Origin: Ferrimicrobium sp.
Lineage (GTDB): Bacteria > Actinomycetota > Acidimicrobiia > Acidimicrobiales > Acidimicrobiaceae
Direction: 5' to 3'
Assembly: GCA_027365375.1 (NCBI GenBank)
Contig: DAHXNM010000141.1
Location: 1 to 37,989, forward strand
DNA length: 37,989 bases
Part shown: piece after piece, positions 1,559 to 37,989 of the stretch
How the letters are laid out: every line of letters begins with the position of its first letter
Numbering within the stretch: the first letter of the stretch is position 1
Program-made: the position numbers and the translations under genes
The notes under the pieces: model-generated
Told to the model about the DNA's origin: nothing
Database searches by the model: none
What the model saw: only the letters and a program-made list of their open reading frames with translations

Positions 1559-2464
1559 TTAGCCTCGGGACCCAAACAGTTTCGGCCACTTGCGTGAATC
1601 TCGATGGTTATGGCGATGCGCATTTGTGCGCCACTCCTCAACCCAACTTCGTGACGGCGCTGGGAAGGGTAAGGCTTCGTTCGGTTTACGAGCGGTGTAA
1701 AAGTCGGTAGCCGCCTCGCGACCTAGGATGCCGAGGGCGTGAGTGATGCGACCGTTGAAGTCGGCTACTCGTTCTTGGTCTCGAGCATACAGTGGTTCTC
1801 CGATGATGACGGTAGTGGAGCCGGGGTGGATTCGGTCAGCGGTCTTGCCGAAGATCTCATAGGTGCCGTCAATAAAAATGGGTACTACCGGCCGACCCAC
1901 TTTGATCGCAATTTGGGCGGCGCCTGACTTGAGTTCTTGGGTGAGTCCGTCGGGTGTCCTCCCACCCTCTGGGAAGAGAACGAGGTTCCAACCCTCCTCT
2001 AGGAGCTGGGTGGCCAACTCTGCCGACGCACGCGAAGGCCGCACGCGGTCGATCGGGATAGCACCGAGGAGTGTGGAAGAGAAGAAGCCTTTGGTTCTTC
2101 GGTCAAAGAAGAAGTCAGCTCCAGCGCCGACGACGGTGTGGTGGCGTAGCTTGGGTGGTAGCACGGTGAGAATGAGAGGAGTGTCGAGGTGGCTTTGGTG
2201 ATTGGCCACGAAGATTATTGGCCGCTCCAGGGTCTCTAGCGCTGATGCATTGATGATCGTAGGCTTTGCGATCGAACGAGTGAGCGGGGCAATGCTGGTG
2301 TCGAGCAGGAAACCGCGTACGCGTCGAACAACCTCTTTGCGCGAGAAAGTGGTGTCGTAGTTTGTGCCGGTGGCATGAGTTCGTGGCGGAATCATCGATC
2401 CAGGTGGGGTTGGTCGACGCAATAGGAACTCTGCTAGCGGGCGTGGTGACTTCCTAGTAGACAT
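1559..2464 (-). CDS. 1-acyl-sn-glycerol-3-phosphate acyltransferase (PlsC-like)
   Basis: NHQSHLD (HX4D) and FPEGGRT motifs; start overlaps the end of the upstream gene. Confidence 0.85.
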   Translation of the reverse strand: MSTRKSPRPLAEFLLRRPTPPGSMIPPRTHATGTNYDTTFSRKEVVRRVRGFLLDTSIAPLTRSIAKPTIINASALETLERPIIFVANHQSHLDTPLILTVLPPKLRHHTVVGAGADFFFDRRTKGFFSSTLLGAIPIDRVRPSRASAELATQLLEEGWNLVLFPEGGRTPDGLTQELKSGAAQIAIKVGRPVVPIFIDGTYEIFGKTADRIHPGSTTVIIGEPLYARDQERVADFNGRITHALGILGREAATDFYTARKPNEALPFPAPSRSWVEEWRTNAHRHNHRDSRKWPKLFGSRG

Positions 2465-4040
2465 CGGCCATCACCAAGGGGGGAGAGTGTAGGTGCATGA
2501 TACTGGGATCAGATCCGACTATCGTTCGAGCCATCTCAAGAGCATCAGCCATTGTCGATGCCGACTGGAAGCCAAGACGGCGGGTCGTCTTTGGATCGCC
2601 ACCAAGGATGATCACGCCACCTAGATGGTCGAGGGCATGGGCACCCCAATACCACATGTAGAACGGATGGACACCGTGGTAGGCGTTCCCGGTTCGATAG
2701 AGGTGAATGTACCAAGGATCTCGAGCGAAGGACTCCTCGTATTTGGACTCGATCACCAACGGGTCCGTGGTTTCACTGAGCACCTGGTCGAAGAAGTCTA
2801 CATAGCTTGGGTGGAACGCTGGATCGAACTCGGGACGGTTTGGGTGGGACATGATTAGCACACCACCCTTGCGTACCAGTGGCTTGTTTCGGTACATATT
2901 GAAGAAGTAACCAAGTCCGAGGCAGTAGACCAAGATCGGATTCATGATGGAGTTGACGTTATAGGGGCCGATGAATGGAAGCCCAAGTGTCAAGATATCT
3001 GACTGGCCGTCGACTCTGACCAGTTGCTGTTGATAGACGCGCTCTAGCGTGATCTCATGGACCGCCTCTACCTCTCCAGCGGTGATTCCGGTCACCCCAT
3101 AGGGAGATCGCACCGACTGGAAGATCTGGCGTGCGAGGTGGGGTGGGGTCCTCTTGAGGGCTTCGCTGGAGGCGATGAAACTTCCACGATCTCGAAGGTT
3201 CCACTCCCATTCTCGCTTGGCGAGAAAGCGGAAGTTCTCTGGAAAGGTGGCGGTGTTGAGCGTCGTCTCGATCTGGAAGATCTTTACTCCAGCCTCTTTG
3301 ATCACATGACCCATGCGCCAGTTAGATGAGTGCAGCTCTGAGTTGTGTCGATCCATGAACGATCGCGAGTGGACCATGGTGTCGACGTTGTGGTGGAACT
3401 TTATGGAGTCATAGCTAGCAAGTCCAGTCGCAACCGACTTATGTCCACCATCCATTGAGACGAGGTTGATGTTGACGTAGACCAAGAGGTCGCTCTCGAC
3501 TGCGCGACGGTTGAGCTCCACGAGTTCGCCACGATCCGTCTCTCCAACCACGGTCATGTTCGGCTTGTCTTCAGCATCGTGCTGGGTTAGCTGACCCCGG
3601 GGTGCGAGAGCGTTGTAGACCCGGTTTCCAAGTGCATGGCGAAGCTCTCCCTCGGTCATGCGACGATGGAGTGCGAGAGCTGCGATGAGGGCTACGTCGG
3701 TGACGCCGGCTTCGGCTGCGCGTTCTAGCACAGCCTCGATCACTAGTGAGCGAATGTCAGGTGACGCCATCTGTGGAAGTGGAAGCGAGACGTCGTCAAA
3801 GGCGATCGTCAGCTTCATGTTTGCGTTCAGCAGACTCGACAGTGGTTGAGCATCACCAACCGGGTTGTCAAGCGCCTTCTCAATGGCGGCGCGAACATCA
3901 TTGATCGGGTTCAATGGCTCTGGAGGATAGAGGATGCGTGACCCTCTTGGCAGACGCTCAAGCCGGAAGGACTCTCCGTGCCAAAATAGCGTCGGGGGAG
4001 TCGCGCGGTCAACCTCGAGAACAAATCCGGGTCTAGGCAT
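2454..4040 (-). CDS. LarA-like (DUF2088) nickel-pincer racemase/epimerase homologue
   Basis: ALHRRMTEGELRHALG, QHDAEDKP and SMDGGHKSVATGLASYDSIKFHHN align with LarA motifs. The start at 4040 (MPRPGF) overlaps the upstream stop; the track ORF extends to 4136. Confidence 0.75.
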   Translation of the reverse strand: MPRPGFVLEVDRATPPTLFWHGESFRLERLPRGSRILYPPEPLNPINDVRAAIEKALDNPVGDAQPLSSLLNANMKLTIAFDDVSLPLPQMASPDIRSLVIEAVLERAAEAGVTDVALIAALALHRRMTEGELRHALGNRVYNALAPRGQLTQHDAEDKPNMTVVGETDRGELVELNRRAVESDLLVYVNINLVSMDGGHKSVATGLASYDSIKFHHNVDTMVHSRSFMDRHNSELHSSNWRMGHVIKEAGVKIFQIETTLNTATFPENFRFLAKREWEWNLRDRGSFIASSEALKRTPPHLARQIFQSVRSPYGVTGITAGEVEAVHEITLERVYQQQLVRVDGQSDILTLGLPFIGPYNVNSIMNPILVYCLGLGYFFNMYRNKPLVRKGGVLIMSHPNRPEFDPAFHPSYVDFFDQVLSETTDPLVIESKYEESFARDPWYIHLYRTGNAYHGVHPFYMWYWGAHALDHLGGVIILGGDPKTTRRLGFQSASTMADALEMARTIVGSDPSIMHLHSPPLVMADVY

Positions 4041-5253
4041 CGTGTACCGACTTTCTTTTTGTGAGATCGAAAACAACTTTAATGGCGTCCTCGCGGCCAC
4101 CATGATAGGCCTTGCGAAGGGCCGGAACATACTCATTGAGTCGATATCTATGAGTTACGAGCCTGCCTAGCCCTAGCTCGGGGGCTAGATGAAGGGCGAG
4201 GTCGAAGGTGCGTGGTCGCCCATCGTTGTCTAGTAGTCCAATCCGCTTCGCGGTTGCGGGCTCGAGCTGTTCTTGTCCGTAGGCGTAGGCGCCCTTTAGC
4301 GTTACCTCGCGGTGCCAGAGTGGAGCGAGATCCAATGATTGCCTCGACGGCATGCCGGCCACGATCACCTCGCCGCCTGGACGGACGGTTTCGACGGCTG
4401 ACTCGATGGTCGAGGTAGAGCCAACCGCATCGATAATGGTGTCAAAACCATCGCTTAGATATCGTCCTACCCGCTGGCTGGCATGCAGCCGACGAGCAGC
4501 ACCGAGGAGTTCGTCAGGGTATAGCACCTGGGTGGCACCAAGAACTTTGGCGAGTTGGCGTTGCAGTGGGTGTTTAGCGACCACGGTGATTGAGTCGTAC
4601 TCACCGAGCCGAGCAGAGGCCGCTAGGGTTGTGAGCCCGACGGTACCAGCACCGATGATGGCAAGGTTGCCTTGACGGCGGTTTGGCACAAGGCTGATAT
4701 GAATCGCGCAGGCTAGTGGCTCAATCATCACAGCATCTTCGAGGGTCATAGTCTCTGGGAGCAGGTGCAACGCGCGCTCATGGGCGATGAATTCATTCGA
4801 CCAACCGCCACCGGTTGAGGCACAATAGCCGAGCTGTATTCCCTCTTTGAGATCGCCTATGGCGATAGACTCGCAGCGTTGTGTCTCTCCGACTGCACAG
4901 AACCGGCAGGGGGCGAGACCTCTTATTGCGCAGGTGAGCGCTGGTTCCACGACGACTCTCTCACCTGGGCGGTCTACTCGCTCGCCGACGATCTCGTGCC
5001 CAGGCGTGAAGGGTAAAGAGGTGAGTGGATCGAAGTAGCGAGAGGACTTGAAGAAGACGGTGGCGATGTCTGACCCACAGATTCCAGAGAGTAGCGGTCG
5101 TACTCTTACCCATTCGTTGGAGGGCTGTTTCGGAGTATCGACGTCCTTCAGACTAAGTGGACCTGACTCGATAGCCTTGTCGGTCAGTCGATCCTTTAGA
5201 AGCCGGGCTGTTAGAAATCTGGCCGGTGACCGGCTAACGACTAGTGCCTTCAA
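4033..5253 (-). CDS. zinc-dependent medium-chain alcohol dehydrogenase (MDR)
   Basis: GICGSD, GHEIVGERV, structural-zinc cysteines (CAIRGLAPCRFCAVGETQRC), Rossmann GAGTVG. A TTG start at 5253 overlaps the upstream TGA; the track ORF extends to 5322. Confidence 0.8.
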   Translation of the reverse strand: MKALVVSRSPARFLTARLLKDRLTDKAIESGPLSLKDVDTPKQPSNEWVRVRPLLSGICGSDIATVFFKSSRYFDPLTSLPFTPGHEIVGERVDRPGERVVVEPALTCAIRGLAPCRFCAVGETQRCESIAIGDLKEGIQLGYCASTGGGWSNEFIAHERALHLLPETMTLEDAVMIEPLACAIHISLVPNRRQGNLAIIGAGTVGLTTLAASARLGEYDSITVVAKHPLQRQLAKVLGATQVLYPDELLGAARRLHASQRVGRYLSDGFDTIIDAVGSTSTIESAVETVRPGGEVIVAGMPSRQSLDLAPLWHREVTLKGAYAYGQEQLEPATAKRIGLLDNDGRPRTFDLALHLAPELGLGRLVTHRYRLNEYVPALRKAYHGGREDAIKVVFDLTKRKSVHDA

Positions 5254-7574
5254 AGCTGGCCTCCGATCGGGAGGAAGATGTTGCCATACCCCTTCGCGCG
5301 TGACCACTCTTCGATTAGCCATCCGCGGCGCCGAGCAAGCTGGCGCAGTTTGGTATCTGGGTTGACGGCTACAGCAGCGCCGGCGGCCTCGAGCATCGGG
5401 AGATCGCTTGTGGAGTCGGCATAGGCGATCGTCTCTTCGATCTCGAATCCGTTGCTCTTGGCTAGCTTGCGCAACAGGTCACCACGCGCCTCTCCAATTG
5501 GGAGCGCGCCAGGAACCTCACCTGTCAGCCGACCGTTGTCATCGGTGGTCATCTCCAGAGAGATCATCTGATCGAACAGGGGTGCCATAGGGGCAACGGC
5601 AAAGGAGAGTGCTCCGGTGATGCAGACGGTAAAGTGTCCCGCGCGCCTATGAGCTCGTACGCGTGCAAGTCCGAGCGGAAACGATTTGCGTAGCAAGTAT
5701 CCGGTGAGAAACTCAGGTGCCTTGCGCTCTAGTTCTTCGAGCTCGGCACCACGGTAGCGCCGATAGAAGTAGCGGAGGAAATCGGAACGGTCGTGATTAT
5801 CGAGCGCCAAGAGCTGTGGGGCCTCTGCTAATAGACTCGCTGCGATCGCCAACTTCTGACCTCCCTCTACACTCGCTGTCGCAAGCCAGGAGAATGAGTC
5901 AACTACATTTGCCGCCAAGATGGTGTTCTCTAGGTCGAATGCCGCCATACGATGACCGCTAAGGAGCGATGCTCGAAGCCGGTCTTCTCTGGAGGTTCGT
6001 TTCGGAGCGCTGCTCTTGGGACGGGTGCGAGCGCGAGCGTGCTCTACCACCGATGGAAGGTGTGTCGTTAGCACGAACGACTCCCAGTCGATTAAGCGTG
6101 GGTCCATTGCTATCGTGGCTCGCTCCTCATCCTCGAGTTGGGAGGCGAGCTCTAGCAGATTATCGGCTAGATAGATGGCCTCGCATTCGGCGTAGGCACC
6201 GTAGAGCTCGACGTAGGAGCTGGCACGTTCAAGACCCTGCTGAGTCTCTGCGAGCTGGTCTTGATACTCGACGAAGTTCGACCGCAGCGGCAGTTTCGAT
6301 ATGATCTTAGTTGAGGTGTCAACCAGTCGTTTGGAACGCCGCAGTGTCGACTCCACCTGTCCACGAGCGGGATAGGTCCACTCTGGAATCGCAATCGCCT
6401 GTCCAATCTCGTCGTAGAGTGGATTTTCGCTGAAGTACCTACGGATAAAGCCAACTAGCTGACGATACTTGAGCGGGTTCACGGATCCAGATGCAGAGTG
6501 ATAGTGTTTGACGCTCTCAGGTGGATGCGCTGCAGCCGTCAAAATTGCGCCTACGACCAGATCGACGGGGATCACATCGACGACCCCTTCAGGGACGCCG
6601 GGAAAGTCCTTCAGGAGTCCACGAGCGAACGAGATGATAATCGGCTCCGCCATACGAAAACCACGAATCCAGCCAGGATAAGGGTCACGGAGAGCGGACT
6701 CGATGATCGAGGGTCTGACGATCGACAGAGGGACGTTGCCACGCTCCGATTCGAGCAGTCGTTCGCCCAGAGCCTTGGTCATCGCGTAGGCATCGGGCCA
6801 CCCCAGGCTTTGAGCTCGGGCACGGCCCTTGGCCACCATCTCATCCTTTACCCATTCAGCGCGCAGGCGTTCGATCTTCTCCGAAAGGAGCGCAACTCCT
6901 GCTGCTCCAAGCTCAGCAAGTGCAGTCGAACGCAGCTCAGCCAGGGTGTCGGGTTCACGGCTGGAGGCCTCGGTGGAGGTGCGTTGTGCGCGAGCGGCGT
7001 TGACCTCCTGTTGCCAAGGAATATCTGGGTAGTGAGGTTGCTCGGTCAATGAGAGCTCCGGGGCGTCTCCCTTCCGAGAGCCGGCGACATAGGCGGTGGA
7101 GACGGATACGAAGTGTCCTGGATCCTCGGGATTGGCTCGTGCTTGCTGGTAGGCGTGCATCACCCGTGTTGGCCCGAGAAGGTTGATCTCGATAGCCTGG
7201 TCGAACATGGCGTCAAAGCTCACGGTGGCTGCGGAGTGGACCACCACGTCGCTGTTGGCGAGCAGTCGTTGACCCTCTTCGTCGAGGCCGAGTCCGTCAG
7301 TTCCTACGTCGCCTTTGGCGATCTTTACTCGATTCGCGACCTCGTCACGGAAGCGTTGCGACCCCCATTGATCGCGGAGTCGATCGAAACAGTTATTTCT
7401 GAATAGATCCTTCTCGGCACGCCCCTCGGCGGTGATAGCCCGCCCTGGACGAATGAGCAAGACTAGGTTGGTCTCCGGTAGCGTTCGAAGCACCGTCTCT
7501 ACCAGAGCCGTTCCCAAAAACCCGGTTGCGCCGGTTACAAAAATAGTCTTTCCGCTTAGTGCAGATTCGAGCAC
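5250..7574 (-). CDS. fatty acyl-CoA reductase-like SDR fused to a HAD-IB phosphatase-like domain
   Basis: N-terminal GATGFLG and YAMTK (SDR/male-sterility type). C-terminal FDLENT, CITGA and YADSTSDLPML (HAD motifs). Confidence 0.8.
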   Translation of the reverse strand: MLESALSGKTIFVTGATGFLGTALVETVLRTLPETNLVLLIRPGRAITAEGRAEKDLFRNNCFDRLRDQWGSQRFRDEVANRVKIAKGDVGTDGLGLDEEGQRLLANSDVVVHSAATVSFDAMFDQAIEINLLGPTRVMHAYQQARANPEDPGHFVSVSTAYVAGSRKGDAPELSLTEQPHYPDIPWQQEVNAARAQRTSTEASSREPDTLAELRSTALAELGAAGVALLSEKIERLRAEWVKDEMVAKGRARAQSLGWPDAYAMTKALGERLLESERGNVPLSIVRPSIIESALRDPYPGWIRGFRMAEPIIISFARGLLKDFPGVPEGVVDVIPVDLVVGAILTAAAHPPESVKHYHSASGSVNPLKYRQLVGFIRRYFSENPLYDEIGQAIAIPEWTYPARGQVESTLRRSKRLVDTSTKIISKLPLRSNFVEYQDQLAETQQGLERASSYVELYGAYAECEAIYLADNLLELASQLEDEERATIAMDPRLIDWESFVLTTHLPSVVEHARARTRPKSSAPKRTSREDRLRASLLSGHRMAAFDLENTILAANVVDSFSWLATASVEGGQKLAIAASLLAEAPQLLALDNHDRSDFLRYFYRRYRGAELEELERKAPEFLTGYLLRKSFPLGLARVRAHRRAGHFTVCITGALSFAVAPMAPLFDQMISLEMTTDDNGRLTGEVPGALPIGEARGDLLRKLAKSNGFEIEETIAYADSTSDLPMLEAAGAAVAVNPDTKLRQLARRRGWLIEEWSRAKGYGNIFLPIGGQL

Positions 7575-7614: not shown

Positions 7615-8130
7615 TTAGGGACGGCTGTTGCGCCTACGCCTGGCCTCGCGCTTGGAGGGAGGTTTGGGTGGGGTATAACGCTTTGATGCAGTGGGTCGTG
7701 GTCTCGGCGCCATCATGGCAGCGCTGCTCCCGGACGAGTTTGGGGGAGCGAGCCCAGCCTTCTTGGCCATCCGCGCCTGACGGCGTAGCTCAACTTGAGC
7801 GCGATCGACTTTGAATCCAACAAAAACTCCCCACGCCATCAGAGGGAAGGCCAGCAGAACAAGACTGCCCCATCCGGCGCCTAGCGCGACGATGATTGCA
7901 CCAACTCCAGCGAACCGGCGTTGGTTGCGATAGATCATGAAGGCTGTGATCGCCATCAGTACCAGCCCTTCGGTAATAGCGACGGCTGGATCATTCAGGA
8001 AGGACGCATTTTTTGCTGGCTTTACTTTGCCAATAATCACTGGGGTCCAGATGGCGATGTAGGCGATAGCGGTGAGCGCTACGATGCCAAAACCTATCTG
8101 ACGTTCGCGTTTTGAAAGTGGGGCGGCCAT
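7615..8130 (-). CDS. hypothetical multi-pass membrane protein
   Basis: 171-aa ORF with several hydrophobic segments and a basic C-terminal tail. Confidence 0.6.
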   Translation of the reverse strand: MAAPLSKRERQIGFGIVALTAIAYIAIWTPVIIGKVKPAKNASFLNDPAVAITEGLVLMAITAFMIYRNQRRFAGVGAIIVALGAGWGSLVLLAFPLMAWGVFVGFKVDRAQVELRRQARMAKKAGLAPPNSSGSSAAMMAPRPRPTASKRYTPPKPPSKREARRRRNSRP

Positions 8131-30734: not shown

Positions 30735-31784
30735 CTATCCGAGTATTGACAATGAGAAAAAGTCGCCTTGCTGGTCGGTAAACGGCTCGGTGTAGACCAC
30801 ACCTGGTTTTAATGAGTTGACCGCTCGCGAGCAGTCGGCGACGAAGGGGTCACTGCCGGCGATGAACACGGCGGTGTCGGCCAGTGAAGGAGTGATGGCT
30901 TCAAGGATCCCCGGTATGCGGCCATGGTGATGTGGCTCGGTGGTGCAGGTTAGGTCATGATCATGACGTGTGTAGCTGACCTGGAGCTCAAAGTTTGAGT
31001 AGCGTCGTTTGAGGTATTCGAGTTGTCCTAACGGATAGACATCTGCTGGCGTGCGTGCTGAGAACACGAGAGTGACCGGATGTGCAAAGCCCCGTCGAAG
31101 TGCAGCCTCGGTGAGCGACATGATCGGGGCGAGGCCGGACCCGCCGGCGATCAGTAGAACGGGCGTGGCGATTGCGGGGTCACCGATGAAGGAGCCGTAA
31201 GGCCCATTTACCATGAGGGTCTCGCCGATTGATACGCGGTCGGTGAGCCAGCTGCTGGTCTGGCCGAAGGGTTCACGAGTGATGTAGAAGGTCAATTCGC
31301 CGTCGGGGCGCGGAGCATTCGCCATCGAGTAGTTGCGCAGAGGATGCTCCGGTGGCGCTCCAAGTTGCATATGTTGACCGGGCCAGAATCGGAGCGACTC
31401 GCCAACGGGGCGAAGGCGTAACTCGATGATGGAGGGGGTGCGCTCTATACGTTCTACTACGACATAGGGGACCTGTTCGCGAGGTGGGAATAGCGTCGGC
31501 TTTGCGTCCTCAGTTCCCCATTCGATCTCGAGGCACTCCGATAGCGGTTTGGCCATGCACATCGCTCCATAACCTTGCTCGCGATCCTCTTTTGAGAGAG
31601 CCATGTCTAAGACGAACCCTTGGTCGAAGGAGCCAGAGCGGACCTTAACCTTGCACTCGCCACAGGTTCCGGCCCGACAGTTGTTCGGCAGTGCCCAACC
31701 CTCGGCCTCGAGGGCGGCCAAGACGGTCATGCCATCGGGGCAGGGAATCTCATTGCCTGACGGATAGAGCCTTATTACTGACAC
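30735..31784 (-). CDS. 2Fe-2S ferredoxin-NAD(P)H flavoreductase (oxygenase reductase component type)
   Basis: N-terminal CRAGTCGECKVKV plus downstream Cys; FAD motif RNYSMAN; GGSGLAPIMSL nucleotide-binding region. Confidence 0.88.
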   Translation of the reverse strand: MSVIRLYPSGNEIPCPDGMTVLAALEAEGWALPNNCRAGTCGECKVKVRSGSFDQGFVLDMALSKEDREQGYGAMCMAKPLSECLEIEWGTEDAKPTLFPPREQVPYVVVERIERTPSIIELRLRPVGESLRFWPGQHMQLGAPPEHPLRNYSMANAPRPDGELTFYITREPFGQTSSWLTDRVSIGETLMVNGPYGSFIGDPAIATPVLLIAGGSGLAPIMSLTEAALRRGFAHPVTLVFSARTPADVYPLGQLEYLKRRYSNFELQVSYTRHDHDLTCTTEPHHHGRIPGILEAITPSLADTAVFIAGSDPFVADCSRAVNSLKPGVVYTEPFTDQQGDFFSLSILG

Positions 31785-31921
31785 CGGGCCTCCTTAAAAC
31801 ACTCAACACACGTTTAGGTCTCTCGCTCCTCGATCACAGCGTCGCAGTTCGTGTCCTTCGACACCATTGGCGACTGCACTGTGATCTATGAGACGAGAGC
31901 CTGTGCTACTATTGTAACCAG

Positions 31922-31937
31922 CCGACCGAATGGTCGG
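31922..31937. promoter_or_regulatory. candidate TetR-type operator in the divergent promoter region
   Basis: Palindrome ccgacc-gaat-ggtcgg, 23 bp before the GTG start at 31961; a TetR gene lies in the same cluster. Confidence 0.55.
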
Positions 31938-31960
31938 TAGATGTGTGAAAGGGGAGTGCA

Positions 31961-32986
31961 GTGACACAGGCGCACGACGGACTCGGCGGATCGATGGAGT
32001 TTCCCCCGCCGATTGAGCAGCCAAACATCTTTCCGTTGTCGTGGGAGTCTCAGACGACGAAGCTCGAAGAGATTTGGGCCTCGGCACAGAAGGAGTACTG
32101 GGATCCAGCACGGCTTCCGTGGGACGGTCTGCGACCCGAGCAGATGTCCCCAGCAGAGCGCGAGGCGGTTGCATACTGGTTCTCGCTTCTTTCTGTGTTC
32201 GACGCATCGGCTCCACCGGTGTTCGCGACAGCCTTAGTGCATGCGTATGAGATTCATGAGGAGGATCCGGTTCGACGCGCGTTCTTCTCGATCACCCGTG
32301 ATGAGCAGAATCACGAGATAGTCTGTGGTAAGGCGATCTCACTCCTGACGCCAGGAGCCCCACTCGACTACGAACCACAGTCTGACCTGGGGCGCAGGGC
32401 AAAGCGCAACGTTGAGTGGCTCTATCACAATGGGGCTCGTTATTGGAACGGTTATAAGAAGGCGGTTCCTCGCTACTCGATGGCTGTGCTTTTTAGCTCC
32501 TTCCTGATGGGAGAGGTCGCCTCGGCTACCTTGTTCCAATACATGTTCAACCACACAACGATTCCCGTCTTCAAGGAGGCTTTCCGAGCGATAGGCCGCG
32601 ACGAGGGTCGACACATGGCGATCTGCCTTTCCCTGATGGAGCGCGACTACCCAAAGATCTCTGACGAGGATCGTTCGGTCGTGACCAAACAGATTCGGGC
32701 TGGCTATGTCTTCCTCTCCGGCATCCTTTTTGAGCCCCCATCCGATTTCTGGGACCTACCCGAAGATTTTATTTCGACACAGCGTGAGATAGAAGAGGTA
32801 GCCCGTGCAGCAGGGCTGGGTGTCGCCACCTACGATGAGAAGTTAGAGAATTGGCGCCAAGCGATGCTAAACGTCAAGGGAGTGCTGGAACGATATGACA
32901 TTCCGTTCCCGGCTATCCCTGAGGTTGGAATCTCTGGAGAGGAAGTCACGGACGTAAATTGGGACGAGATAATTCCAGTCTTTTAG
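31961..32986 (+). CDS. R2/ferritin-like diiron carboxylate protein
   Basis: DEQNHE and DEGRHM (ExxH pairs), FLMGEV and SVFDAS supply candidate diiron ligands with R2-like spacing. Confidence 0.75.
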   Translation: MTQAHDGLGGSMEFPPPIEQPNIFPLSWESQTTKLEEIWASAQKEYWDPARLPWDGLRPEQMSPAEREAVAYWFSLLSVFDASAPPVFATALVHAYEIHEEDPVRRAFFSITRDEQNHEIVCGKAISLLTPGAPLDYEPQSDLGRRAKRNVEWLYHNGARYWNGYKKAVPRYSMAVLFSSFLMGEVASATLFQYMFNHTTIPVFKEAFRAIGRDEGRHMAICLSLMERDYPKISDEDRSVVTKQIRAGYVFLSGILFEPPSDFWDLPEDFISTQREIEEVARAAGLGVATYDEKLENWRQAMLNVKGVLERYDIPFPAIPEVGISGEEVTDVNWDEIIPVF

Positions 32987-33834
32987 GCCGAGATCTAGAC
33001 ATACGCATTGGGGTAGTTGGTGGGGGAACCATGGGTTCGTCTATCGCCTCCCAGGTGCTGATGTCTGGATTGTGGGTCACCGTTATCGAGGCCAAGTCAG
33101 ATGCAGCACGACGTGCGCAAGATCGTATCGTCGCCACCATCGACCGGGCCCGCCAGAACGGCTTCACCGATATCTCCAGCGAGGTCATAGAGGAGCGGCT
33201 CTCTGTCGTGACCGACTACGAGCAACTCGTCGGGTCATCTATCGTGATCGAGAGTGTGCCAGAGATCGTTGAGCTAAAGCGCGAGGTCATCACCCGAATC
33301 CGACGGGCGATAGGTCCTGATACGCCGGTCGGATCCAATACCTCCTCGATCGCTATCGGCAGCCTTCAAGAGGGGCTGCCTGGGGCTGAGAGTATCGGCG
33401 GACTTCACTTCTTTAACCCGGTACCAGCATCGGCGTTGATCGAGATAGTGGTAGGGCCGTTGACAGGTTTGCCCGTCGTTGATCTTTTTGGGGAGCTTGC
33501 CAGGTTGCTCGGCAAGGAGGCGATCGTCGTCAACGATGCTCCTGGATTCGCCACCTCAAGGCTGGGAGTTGCACTCGGGCTCGAGGCTATTCGGATGCTC
33601 GAAGACCAGGTGGCGAGTGCTGCTGATATCGATCAAGCGATGGTGCTCGGCTACAGGCACCCAATTGGTCCGTTGCGCCTTACCGACCTGGTTGGTCTCG
33701 ACGTCAGGCTGGCGATTGCCCGATATCTCGAACAGATGCTTGGAGAGCGATTCACGCCGCCGAAACTTCTGATCTCGATGGTCGAGGCTGGTCGCCTTGG
33801 GAAGAAGTCTGGAGAGGGCTTCTTTGTCTGGTGA
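32959..33834 (+). CDS. 3-hydroxyacyl-CoA dehydrogenase (PaaH/Hbd-like)
   Basis: GVVGGGTMGSSIA, SNTSSIAIG, GLHFFNPVP, NDAPGFATSRLG. Confidence 0.9.
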   Translation: MGRDNSSLLGRDLDIRIGVVGGGTMGSSIASQVLMSGLWVTVIEAKSDAARRAQDRIVATIDRARQNGFTDISSEVIEERLSVVTDYEQLVGSSIVIESVPEIVELKREVITRIRRAIGPDTPVGSNTSSIAIGSLQEGLPGAESIGGLHFFNPVPASALIEIVVGPLTGLPVVDLFGELARLLGKEAIVVNDAPGFATSRLGVALGLEAIRMLEDQVASAADIDQAMVLGYRHPIGPLRLTDLVGLDVRLAIARYLEQMLGERFTPPKLLISMVEAGRLGKKSGEGFFVW

Positions 33835-34621
33835 TGCTAGTCACGAGGAGGCCGCGACCTCTGTTTCATCGTCTCAGGCCGCGCAGAGCCAGCCTCTGGT
33901 GATTGTTACCGAGAGCGAGGGGGCGCTTAATCTCGGCCTGAACCGGCCAGACAAACGCAATGCGCTCTCGCTCGCGCTGGTGGACCAGCTTCGTCATGCT
34001 ATTGAGACCCGTCGGAATCGACCTGCAGTCTTGTTGTTGACCTCGACGACACCAGGAATGTTTATTGCTGGTGCAGACATCGGCGAGCTTAATGATCGTG
34101 GTGAAGAGGAGGCCTTCCAAGCGATCAACGTAGAGCTCTTCAATGCTATTGCGCGCTGGCGATGGCCAACCATAGCCGTCATCGATGGACCAGCGTTTGG
34201 AGGTGGGTTGGAGTGCGCGCTCGCGTGCGATCTGCGTGTCGCCTCCCCCACGGCTCGATTTGCTCAGCCGGAGCTTGGACTCGGTATCCTGGCGGGAGCA
34301 GGAGGGAATTGGCGTCTACCTGAGCTCGTAGGCCAGGGGATCGCGCGAAGGATGTTATACCTTGGTGAGGTTCTGGATGCCTCAACTGGGTACTCGGTCG
34401 GTCTCGTTGATCAGCTCTCTGAGGAACCTCTTGCTGCCGCGATTGCCTGGGCGAACGTCATTGGTTCGAAACCCTGGCGGGCGCTAGAGATAACGAAGTT
34501 AGCGTTGGCGACTGGGGGGCACGACTCTACCCGCGTAGTGGATATTTTGGGACAGGCGATTCTCTTTGAATCCGAGGAGAAGCGAGTCCGGATGCAGAGG
34601 TTTTTGAAGCCGAGTCATTAA
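33797..34621 (+). CDS. enoyl-CoA hydratase/isomerase family protein
   Basis: NRPDKRNALS, AGADIGEL, IDGPAFGGGLECALACDLR. The start is a TTG (33797 or 33824). Confidence 0.88.
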   Translation: MGRSLERASLSGDASHEEAATSVSSSQAAQSQPLVIVTESEGALNLGLNRPDKRNALSLALVDQLRHAIETRRNRPAVLLLTSTTPGMFIAGADIGELNDRGEEEAFQAINVELFNAIARWRWPTIAVIDGPAFGGGLECALACDLRVASPTARFAQPELGLGILAGAGGNWRLPELVGQGIARRMLYLGEVLDASTGYSVGLVDQLSEEPLAAAIAWANVIGSKPWRALEITKLALATGGHDSTRVVDILGQAILFESEEKRVRMQRFLKPSH

Positions 34622-34634
34622 TAGATGATGAAAG

Positions 34635-35129
34635 GTGGGTATTATGCGCGAGTTTGCGTTGTCTGAGCGCTATCCGATCCTCTACAAGGGTTATGGCGAG
34701 ATCTCTGTTGGAGACAGGCAGGCTACTCGGGGCCGAACTATCACCGAGGGCGATATCACAAGCTGGTGCGCGCTTACAGGAGACTGGTTCTACCTGCATA
34801 CTGATGCAGAGGCCGCCAAGGCGTCGGTATTTCAGCAGGTTGTTGCCCCTGGTATCATGGTTTTTGCGATGGCAACTGGCCTTGCAGTTCCCGCAGACTC
34901 GACTGCCATCATCGCCAACTATGGCTCTGACTCGATTCGCTATCCACACCCAACGTTTGTCGGTGATACGATTCACCTCGAGGCGGAGGTAGTCGCGAAA
35001 GACGATAAGGGGGATGATCGTGGGGTGGTGTCGCTGCGTTGGCAGGTGATCAACCAGAACGGAGTCCTCGTCTGCACCAGTGTGCTGAAGGTGCTCGTCG
35101 CTCGAGAGGTCCCCGCTTATGGCGTTTGA
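34635..35129 (+). CDS. MaoC-family hot-dog dehydratase
   Basis: GRTITEGDITSWCALTGDW and VAPGIMVFAMATG; likely ATG at 34644. Confidence 0.85.
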   Translation: MGIMREFALSERYPILYKGYGEISVGDRQATRGRTITEGDITSWCALTGDWFYLHTDAEAAKASVFQQVVAPGIMVFAMATGLAVPADSTAIIANYGSDSIRYPHPTFVGDTIHLEAEVVAKDDKGDDRGVVSLRWQVINQNGVLVCTSVLKVLVAREVPAYGV

Positions 35130-35925
35130 GCGTAGCCTGCCGCTGGAGCTAGCCACCGATGAGCCGGTAGCCTTTGGGGTCGGCGTTGACCTCGCCGAGC
35201 TGTGGCTCAACCGGCCAGCTAGGTTGAATGCCAGCTCAGATGAGATGGTGCGGTCGATCGACTTAGCGTTAGATGCAATCGCTGAACGCTCCCCACGTGT
35301 TCTAGTCGTTGGCGGAGCGGGGCGAGCCTTCTGTGCCGGACGTGACCTCGCCGATGCTCACCCAGAGGATGAGGATGCCGAGGAGATACTCGCCAACGTC
35401 TATAACCCACTGATACTGCGGCTAGCAGGCCTGGACGTGATTACCATAGCCGCGGTGCATGGTGCTGTCCTCGGCACTGGGCTGGGGTTGGCGCTGGCAT
35501 GTGATTTCGTCATCGCCTCGAGCTCCAGCCGGTGGGGATCACCGTTTGCGCGAATTGGCGCGGTCCTAGACTCCGGCGGTCACTACTTTTTCGGGCGGCT
35601 GGGGCACCAGCGGATTATGGAGCTGATCCTGCTCGGCGAGCTATTCGATGGGAGCGATGCATTCAGGTATGGGCTCGCCTCTCGGGTCGTGGACGATGAG
35701 CATTTTGAGGAGGAGGTCGAGCGATATGTCCAACGTGTTGCGCACGGACCAACCCAAGCCTTTCTAGCCTCTAAGCGGATCTTGAACCGGGAACGGATTC
35801 CCAAACTCGCCGAGGTGCTTGCGATGGAGGCCGAGGCCCAAGGTGGCTGTGCGAGGACTCTGGACTACGCGACAGGCATTCGTTCCTTCGTTGGACACCA
35901 AGAACCTCATTTCGAAGGATGCTAG
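35119..35925 (+). CDS. enoyl-CoA hydratase/isomerase family protein
   Basis: LNRPARLNAS, GRAFCAGRDL, VHGAVLGTGLGLALACDFVIAS. Confidence 0.88.
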   Translation: MAFERSLPLELATDEPVAFGVGVDLAELWLNRPARLNASSDEMVRSIDLALDAIAERSPRVLVVGGAGRAFCAGRDLADAHPEDEDAEEILANVYNPLILRLAGLDVITIAAVHGAVLGTGLGLALACDFVIASSSSRWGSPFARIGAVLDSGGHYFFGRLGHQRIMELILLGELFDGSDAFRYGLASRVVDDEHFEEEVERYVQRVAHGPTQAFLASKRILNRERIPKLAEVLAMEAEAQGGCARTLDYATGIRSFVGHQEPHFEGC

Positions 35926-35928
35926 CCG

Positions 35929-36540
35929 GTGGTCGATTCAGCGGCTGATGAGCGCCGTCAGGAGATCGCAAGTTTGGCGGTGAGTCGGTTTGCGCTGCGC
36001 GGCTTTGACGGTACGTCGATGAGTGATCTCGCCCGCCATGTCGGGCTCTCAAAGGCGGGTATCTATCACTACTTTCCTAGCAAGGAGGCGATCCTTTTCG
36101 AGGCACTCCTCGGGCATTCGGAGAGGCTCCTGGCTACGGTGCTCGATGCCGTTGATCGGGGCGGAGATCCATCTGAGAGACTCGGGAGAGTTGTAGAGGT
36201 GATACTGTACCTCTATCAAGACGCTGACGCCTATCATCAAGCTCAGGTCAACGACCTAGCTCGACTGCCCGAGTCCGAGCAGGAGGTTATCCGCAACAAC
36301 GAACGACAGGTGGTCCGGGTGATGGAGGAGCTGCTTGGCCAGCTTGGGGCAGGGTTGGAGATATCGACGATCAAGGCTCTCACCATGTCGACGTTTGGCA
36401 TTCTCAACTGGCATGCTCGCTGGTTCCGTGAAGGACCTGGCAGGATCGAGCTGGTGGAGTACGCGAAGCTGGTGACTGAGTTTGTTCTTGCTGGGATGAC
36501 TGGAGTAGTAGCGATGAGGGCGATGGAGGTTGGACCATGA
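35929..36540 (+). CDS. TetR-family regulator of the CoA-catabolic cluster
   Basis: ASLAVSRFALRGFDGTSMSDLARHVGLSKAGIYHYFPSKE HTH; embedded in the cluster. Confidence 0.9.
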   Translation: MVDSAADERRQEIASLAVSRFALRGFDGTSMSDLARHVGLSKAGIYHYFPSKEAILFEALLGHSERLLATVLDAVDRGGDPSERLGRVVEVILYLYQDADAYHQAQVNDLARLPESEQEVIRNNERQVVRVMEELLGQLGAGLEISTIKALTMSTFGILNWHARWFREGPGRIELVEYAKLVTEFVLAGMTGVVAMRAMEVGP

Positions 36541-36962
36541 CCGAACAGGAGCTCGCGGAGGCGTGTGCTCGGGCGATGTACGCACGTGATCTGGCGTCTC
36601 AGTCGCTAGGGATTGAGCTCGTTAGGGTTGGTCCAGGCAGCGCCAGCCTGACGATGGAGGTCACCGACACCATGGTGAATGGGCACAGGATATGTCATGG
36701 TGGCTACATTTTCTTGCTTGCTGATACCGCCTTCGCGTTCGCTTGCAACACCTACAACTTGGTGACTGTGGCTCAGAGTGCAGCGGTGGAGTTTATCGCC
36801 CCGGTCTACCGTTCAGATAGGCTCGTTGCGATTGCCAATGAGGTTACTCGGTATGGGAGGAATGGTCTCTACGACATTACGATCGAACGTGAGGGCGAGA
36901 CCATTGCTATCTTCCATGGTCGATCGCGATCGTTGGGACAACCGGTTCTAGAGGAGGAGTGA
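36537..36962 (+). CDS. paaI: PaaI-type hot-dog acyl-CoA thioesterase
   Basis: CHGGYIFLLADTAFAFACNTYN is close to the PaaI signature; start overlaps the tetR stop (ATGA). Confidence 0.85.
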   Translation: MTEQELAEACARAMYARDLASQSLGIELVRVGPGSASLTMEVTDTMVNGHRICHGGYIFLLADTAFAFACNTYNLVTVAQSAAVEFIAPVYRSDRLVAIANEVTRYGRNGLYDITIEREGETIAIFHGRSRSLGQPVLEEE

Positions 36963-36964
36963 AG

Positions 36965-37989
36965 ATGTCAAAGGCCTATCTTGTTGGGGGAGTTAGAACT
37001 CCATTTGGGCGCTACGGAGGCGCACTCTCTCCGGTCCGCACCGACGACCTCGCAGCAGGGGTACTAGCTGAGCTAATGCGGCGCTATCCGTCGGTGGCTG
37101 GGCATGTCGATGAGGTGATTCTAGGATGTGCCAATCAGGCGGGCGAGGACAACCGGAACGTCGCGCGCATGGCGGGTTTGCTCGCTGGCTTGGGGGTCGA
37201 GACCCCGGGTGTGACCGTGAACCGACTCTGTGGATCCGGACTTGAGGCGATAATGACGGCCTCGCGCCTGATCAAGAGTGGGGATGGGGAGATCGTCATC
37301 GCCGGTGGAGTCGAGGGTATGTCGAGAGCGCCGTTTGTAATGCCAAAGGCTGCGAGTGCCTTCGACCGTTCTATCGAGGTCTTTGACACCACGCTTGGAT
37401 GGCGTTTTATAAACGCTCGCATGCGTGATGAGTTCGGCGTCGACTCGATGGGGGAGACGGCCGAGAACGTCGCTGAGGAGTTTTCGGTATCCCGAGATGA
37501 TCAGGACGCCTTTGCTATGCGTTCGCAGGAGAGAGCCTCCAAAGCACAGGAGAACGGTCGCCTCGGGCGAGAGATCGTCTCGGTCGAGGTGCATAGCAGA
37601 CGCGAAACGACGGTTGTCGATTGTGATGAGCATCCTCGGTTGACCTCGTTGGACAAGCTCTCTGGGCTGAAACCTGCCTTTCGACACGGAGGAACGGTGA
37701 CGGCCGGCAATGCGAGTGGGCTCAATGATGGCGCCGCCGCTGTGTTGGTCGCCAGTGAACCGGCCGTAGAGCGCTATTCGTTGACCCCGGTTGCGGAGGT
37801 GGTAGCGGGAGCGACCGCGGGTGTCCCTCCGCGGATCATGGGCATAGGACCCGTGCCGGCCTCGCGCCGGGTTATGGATCGCCTGAATCTGCGGATCACC
37901 GATTTCGGGGTCATAGAGCTCAACGAAGCCTTCGCCGCTCAGTCGCTCGCCTGCCTTCGCCAACTTGGTCTTCCAGATGATGCCGACTT
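36965..37989 (+). CDS. thiolase, PaaJ/PcaF-like (3-oxoadipyl-CoA thiolase type), truncated by the window end
   Basis: [58 protein letters not shown]. Open to the window end and absent from the ORF track. Confidence 0.88.

Follow-up and report, generated by a model that had tools for sequence, protein, structure and literature searches.

A conserved actinobacterial operon that joins a fatty acyl reductase to a non-canonical LarA homologue and may direct alkyl-ether lipid synthesis

Introduction

The LarA homologues of groups 14 to 16 (LarAH14-16) have been named in NCBIfam (NF052592) and by Desguin et al. 2020 (Sci Rep; PMC7583248). Those authors noted that certain LarAH groups lack His174 and Lys298, and found that a purified group-14 protein from Frankia was inactive in the seven reactions assayed. 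Groups 14 and 15 are also named as lacking His174 in the study of the single-histidine enzymes LarA_Sp and LarA_Bw (9q2u/9q3k, 9q3j; PMC12611868), whose genes are found among sugar genes.

Two systems for the synthesis of ether lipids are relevant here. In Myxococcus the elb operon (ElbB-ElbE; PMC9131029) unites FAR1-like, HAD, dehydrogenase and AGPAT functions, while the peroxisomal pathway comprises FAR1, GNPAT, AGPS, a reductase and AGPAT.

We describe an operon of Ferrimicrobium sp. found in a stretch of 37,989 nucleotides, the whole of which is called the window below. It resembles the elb operon in the functions that it assembles, but differs in that ElbD unites ligase and carrier domains in a single large enzyme, in that the elb dehydrogenase is of the epimerase/dehydratase type and not an MDR, and in carrying a LarA homologue, which has not been described for elb. 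With the peroxisomal pathway it shares the FAR, reductase and acyltransferase roles; AGPS is absent from this type of operon, and LarA takes the vacant place. The window LarA itself lies among lipid genes and not among sugar genes as do those of LarA_Sp and LarA_Bw. The neighbourhood of group 14 may already be given in part in the supplementary context table of Desguin et al. 2020; added here are the conservation of the operon, the NPN (nickel-pincer) genes within it and the link to ether lipids.

Results

Gene layout in the window

Analysis of the window indicated that FAR-HAD, MDR, LarA and PlsC genes follow one another on the minus strand (Table 1), each overlapping the next as the sequence-only reading had described: FAR-HAD and MDR share the 4 bp TTGA (5250-5253), MDR and LarA share 8 bp (4033-4040), and LarA and PlsC share 11 bp (2454-2464). 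The identities which that reading had assigned to the four products agree with the Pfam and NCBIfam calls, namely NAD_binding_4 plus HAD, ADH_N plus ADH_zinc_N, Lar_N, and Acyltransferase. The open frame of the MDR contains an additional in-frame ATG upstream, at 5322; its homologues start at the position of the TTG, which is preceded by GGAGG.

The gene for the small protein upstream is possibly co-transcribed with FAR-HAD; a second copy was detected only in one locus of the same family (L057) and the gene was left out of the core. Judged by eye from the sequences, a transposase-like gene lies at 303-1505, 53 bp downstream of PlsC and close to the contig end, and genes resembling a phenylacetate-degradation (paa) cluster occupy 30735-37987.

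Table 1. Genes of the operon and its upstream neighbour in the window
Feature	Coordinates	Strand	Remark
Small predicted protein, no family	7615..8130	-	40 bp upstream of FAR-HAD
FAR-HAD fusion	5250..7574	-	GTG start
MDR dehydrogenase, zinc-type (polyol/ketose family)	4033..5253	-	TTG start
LarA homologue, LarAH14/15/16 group, 528 aa	2454..4040	-	ATG start at 4040
PlsC/AGPAT-type acyltransferase	1559..2464	-	ATG start at 2464

FAR-HAD, MDR and PlsC proteins

The FAR domain is of full length (about residues 3-503), with an invariant Ser159-Tyr263-Lys267, and matched the PDB profile of 7eoz with an E-value of 3.5e-102. A HAD-IB (SerB-like) phosphatase domain follows at about 540-750; it matched the PDB profile of 3fvv/SerB, and its nucleophile Asp547 is invariant while the second motif residue is Glu or Asp. 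The AF2 model of the fusion (pLDDT 88.6) gave rice DPW fatty acyl reductase and 3fvv/SerB as its best folds. The closest solved structure to the MDR is the ketose reductase 1e3j, with sorbitol dehydrogenase also near, and PlsC shows invariant NHxSHxD and PEGxR motifs and a profile of the acylglycerol-phosphate type.

The LarA homologue

The window LarA belongs to LarAH14-16, scoring 872 bits against NF052592 (curated cut-off 740) and 134 bits against PF09861 (Lar_N). The top fold matches of its AF2 model (pLDDT 95.3) were LarA structures, the best being 9q3k, and by profile and fold together the nearest solved structures are LarA_Sp and LarA_Bw, although identity to them is only about 20-24%.

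Alignment of the relatives revealed that Asp83, His125, Lys201 and His217 were invariant in all 55; these residues map to the ribose contact, the catalytic base (the counterpart of the canonical His108), the NPN lysine and the Ni ligand, respectively. The second catalytic His has no equivalent, Asn190 and Asn192 occupying the place of His174, and the position of Arg75, the carboxylate/phosphate contact, is taken by Leu86 in the window LarA and by Leu, Ile, Val or Cys in 47 of 47 operon-type relatives. The region of Lys298 reads PYNVNSIMNP and Ser364 is the likely equivalent, though the C-terminal domains align poorly. The window LarA thus resembles LarA_Sp and LarA_Bw in its Lys, Ni-binding His and single catalytic His, and also in Tyr360 and His458, which match Tyr307 and His401 of LarA_Sp when mapped by hand from the HMMER alignment, and departs from them in that Lys76 and His306 are replaced by Leu86 and Pro359.

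Because the second catalytic His and the carboxylate-binding Arg are missing, the window LarA is, to judge from its residues, outside the definition of the classical 2-hydroxyacid racemases, and the proposal of a 2-hydroxyacid epimerase made in the sequence-only reading could not be maintained. The same reading had not recognised the system as characterised, which holds for the pathway but not for the LarA group, to which NCBIfam and Desguin et al. 2020 have both already given a name. Our literature search for DUF2088 together with an acyltransferase returned nothing.

Conservation of the operon

The 80 named actinobacterial loci were from GTDB genomes of Frankia, Parafrankia, Actinopolymorpha, Kribbella, Nocardioides, Actinomadura, Actinoallomurus, Nitriliruptorales, Microthrix and Acidimicrobiales. 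Neighbourhoods were mapped using a codon-scored caller, since choosing the longest ORF favours antisense frames where the DNA is GC-rich. FAR-HAD, MDR, LarA and PlsC were all present in this order in 69 of the 80 loci, and the majority of the remaining 11 were interrupted by contig ends. In the 30 same-order loci that were fetched, the order was kept to the limit of each locus, MDR being undetected in five and one locus ending just upstream of LarA.

With gene starts taken from our simple gene caller, FAR-HAD and MDR overlapped (distance <=0) in 74 of 94 cases and LarA and PlsC in 51 of 92, while MDR and LarA did so in just 17 of 96, where the median gap was 49 bp. Since the MDR/LarA overlap is infrequent in the relatives, the fully overlapping arrangement reported earlier is correct for the window and specific to it.

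Of the 296 genomes of the class, 74 encoded a protein scoring above the NF052592 cut-off, as did 87 of the 398 of the phylum, nearly always in a single strong copy per genome. The distances of LarA, FAR-HAD, MDR and PlsC were correlated (r 0.89-0.93), which mostly reflects species phylogeny and, taken alone, is weak evidence. More distant LarA relatives (about 40% identity) adjoin CoA-transferases or other genes and not the lipid operon, and for this reason no function was deduced from them. A distant clade with the same active-site pattern stands beside a CaiB-type CoA-transferase in five loci (L077, L079, L080, L083 and L084).

NPN synthesis genes

The genome of the window encodes a single LarA, a larC with adjacent larB, and larE. 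As larB, larC and larE thus accompany one LarA, the NPN dependence predicted for this protein is well supported, and the window LarA very probably uses NPN, as its conserved residues suggest. Of the 80 named loci, 16 have larE, larB and larC next to the operon, as do L067-L069. LarC was found in 69 of the 76 class genomes with LarAH14 (the search gave no match in the other 7) versus 4 of the 220 without, a count that ignores phylogeny. In G205, G271 and G273 LarC is split over two frames, with an in-frame TGA in G271 and G273, the pattern to be expected if larC is broken or depends on a frameshift.

Taken together, the four-gene arrangement goes beyond chance: it is a real and widely conserved lipid operon linked to NPN. 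Gene order in relatives and the NPN genes of the genome were two of the points on which the lipid pathway of the sequence-only reading had been made to depend, and with both in place that idea and NPN dependence survive.

Ether-lipid genes in Rubrobacter and other genomes

In Rubrobacter the locus has the order plsY, FAR-HAD, MDR, LarA. The family concerned (f66) is Rubrobacteraceae, three of its genomes (G367, G475 and G514) matching R. indicoceani, R. tropicus and R. marinus plasmids at 100%. CarF/PEDS1-like desaturases, the known substrates of which are alkyl-ether phospholipids, were detected in 18 of the 398 phylum genomes, 17 of these being Rubrobacteraceae; CarF and the operon co-occur in one family only, and their association is confounded by phylogeny. 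The presumed diagnostic site of CarF, His113, is His in six of ten Rubrobacteraceae copies and Asn in the other four. Two Rubrobacteraceae with fragmented assemblies (G534 and G634) carry CarF and gave no LarAH14 match. The CarF-like genes lie in L182-L191 (Rubrobacteraceae) and at L241:3008-3718 (G415).

About 46% of the phospholipids or core lipids of Rubrobacterales are ether-linked, according to the statement in PMC10821996 that cites Sinninghe Damste et al. 2023. In a 2022 review (PMC9131029) the bacteria listed as having CarF are myxobacteria, Leptospira and Alphaproteobacteria alone.

No AGPS was found in the sampled Rubrobacteraceae, where the AGPS-homologue query gave weak matches of the D-lactate/glycolate-oxidase type only, and no PlsA/Ger-type HGD-D enzyme in the 29 genomes searched. 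Within the operon there was no known ether-forming enzyme (AGPS, ElbD or Ger/PlsA). G415, the one sampled CarF genome outside Rubrobacteraceae, gave no LarAH14 match; it has a full-length AGPS and, in addition, neighbouring genes for CarF, FAR and the C-terminus of an AGPS (L241:3008-6152), which together resemble a complete AGPS-type plasmalogen cluster.

Three Acidimicrobiia loci (L063, L171 and L235) have an AGPS homologue at a distance of 3-7 kb from the operon, and AGPS and the operon occur together in some Acidimicrobiia and Nitriliruptoria-like genomes. Since both are present there, LarA need not replace AGPS in those genomes and may carry out another step. For Acidimicrobiia, Frankia, Kribbella and Nocardioides the literature search turned up no lipid data, and it showed no direct report that Nocardioides, Kribbella or Actinomadura contain ether lipids.

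Discussion

The genome comparisons suggest ether-linked membrane lipids made by a route that has not been described. The computed results are the gene identities, the conservation of the operon, the NPN-synthesis genes, the retention of NPN-binding residues and the loss of racemase residues; beyond these, we infer the ether-lipid product, all substrates and the LarA reaction. On balance we favour the view that the operon is a conserved actinobacterial system for alkyl-ether (plasmanyl-type) glycerophospholipid synthesis that includes a non-canonical NPN enzyme. The fatty acyl reductase, glycerolipid acyltransferase and dehydrogenase expected of an alkyl-ether operon are all present. Besides the conserved order and the NPN genes, this view is favoured by the agreement of the operon's functions with those of elb, the ether lipids reported for Rubrobacterales, the CarF-like desaturases of Rubrobacteraceae, the negative AGPS and HGD-D searches, the AGPS found with FAR and CarF in G415, and the AGPS homologues near the operon in Acidimicrobiia; the Rubrobacter, CarF, AGPS/HGD-D and G415 arguments concern few families. 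Counting against it are the genomes that have AGPS as well as the operon, the confounded distribution of CarF, the Asn in four CarF copies, G534 and G634, and the seven LarAH14 genomes in which LarC was not detected. The case for ethers is strongest in Rubrobacter, and it would extend to the organism of the window only through homology of gene order.

In such a pathway the FAR domain would convert a fatty acyl thioester to a fatty alcohol or aldehyde, and PlsC, or PlsY in Rubrobacter, would acylate the glycerol-phosphate backbone. The MDR would oxidise or reduce this backbone or the ketone of alkyl-glycerone-phosphate, and the HAD domain would remove or transfer phosphate. NPN-loaded LarA would transfer hydride on a lipid or polyol intermediate other than a 2-hydroxycarboxylate, and its step may be the installation of the ether. 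In this tentative and rather doubtful form of the proposal, which was reached by elimination because neither AGPS nor a PlsA/Ger-type enzyme was found in the Rubrobacter genomes searched, LarAH14 would be an NPN-dependent ether-forming enzyme that joins a fatty alcohol or aldehyde to a glycerol-phosphate or glycerone-phosphate backbone, with hydride stored on and returned from NPN.

The chemistry of LarA, which is the inversion of secondary alcohols, could also be directed at the backbone itself. LarA would then invert or oxidise the C2 carbinol of sn-glycerol-1-phosphate, sn-glycerol-3-phosphate or a lyso-lipid, MDR and PlsC/PlsY would share this backbone, and the product would be a lipid of unusual stereochemistry in which an ether is not required. 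The closeness of the MDR to polyol/ketose dehydrogenases, the acceptance of both glycerol-phosphate stereoisomers by PlsY and PlsC (PMC13400652) and the plsY gene adjoining the operon in Rubrobacter are consistent with this; however, the missing catalytic His argues against free two-way inversion (PMC12611868) and the FAR is left without a role, so that we regard it as unlikely.

A product based on 1,2-diols, 2-hydroxylated chains or other alcohols, with LarA setting or moving the hydroxyl and FAR acting on a 2-hydroxyacyl or a normal acyl thioester, appears more improbable still. A FAR with the fold of the rice DPW enzyme and a LarA-type protein are compatible with a hydroxyacyl intermediate, but the carboxylate-binding Arg is replaced in every operon-type relative, and the neighbourhoods contain no conserved hydroxylase or condensing enzyme.

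That LarA is an ordinary NPN-dependent 2-hydroxyacid racemase whose lipid neighbours are incidental would agree with the title of NF052592, NPN-dependent hydroxyacid isomerase, and with the NPN-binding residues and NPN-synthesis genes. We consider it very unlikely, given the loss of the second His and the Arg, the inactivity of the Frankia LarAH14 protein in the seven reactions assayed (PMC7583248), the retention of the same neighbours across classes of the phylum and the correlated distances of the four genes. Equally remote is the synthesis of wax esters or fatty-alcohol storage lipids, for although FAR would supply the fatty alcohol and a PlsC-type acyltransferase is at hand to esterify it, MDR, HAD and LarA would have no part, PlsC has an acylglycerol-phosphate-type profile and the partner in Rubrobacter is PlsY, a glycerol-phosphate acyltransferase.

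If the alkyl-ether reading is right, the operon would give an orphan group of nickel-pincer enzymes a first pathway and would carry NPN chemistry beyond small hydroxyacids to membrane lipids. AGPS relies on flavin and PlsA/Ger on iron-sulphur chemistry; ether formation by LarAH14, if true, would dispense with both and add to the ways in which aerobic Actinomycetota can make ether lipids. The operon would likewise offer candidate genes for ether lipids made without AGPS or the anaerobic PlsA/Ger in Rubrobacterales, and perhaps in many other Actinomycetota. The origin of ether lipids in Rubrobacterales bears on the divide between bacterial and archaeal lipids.
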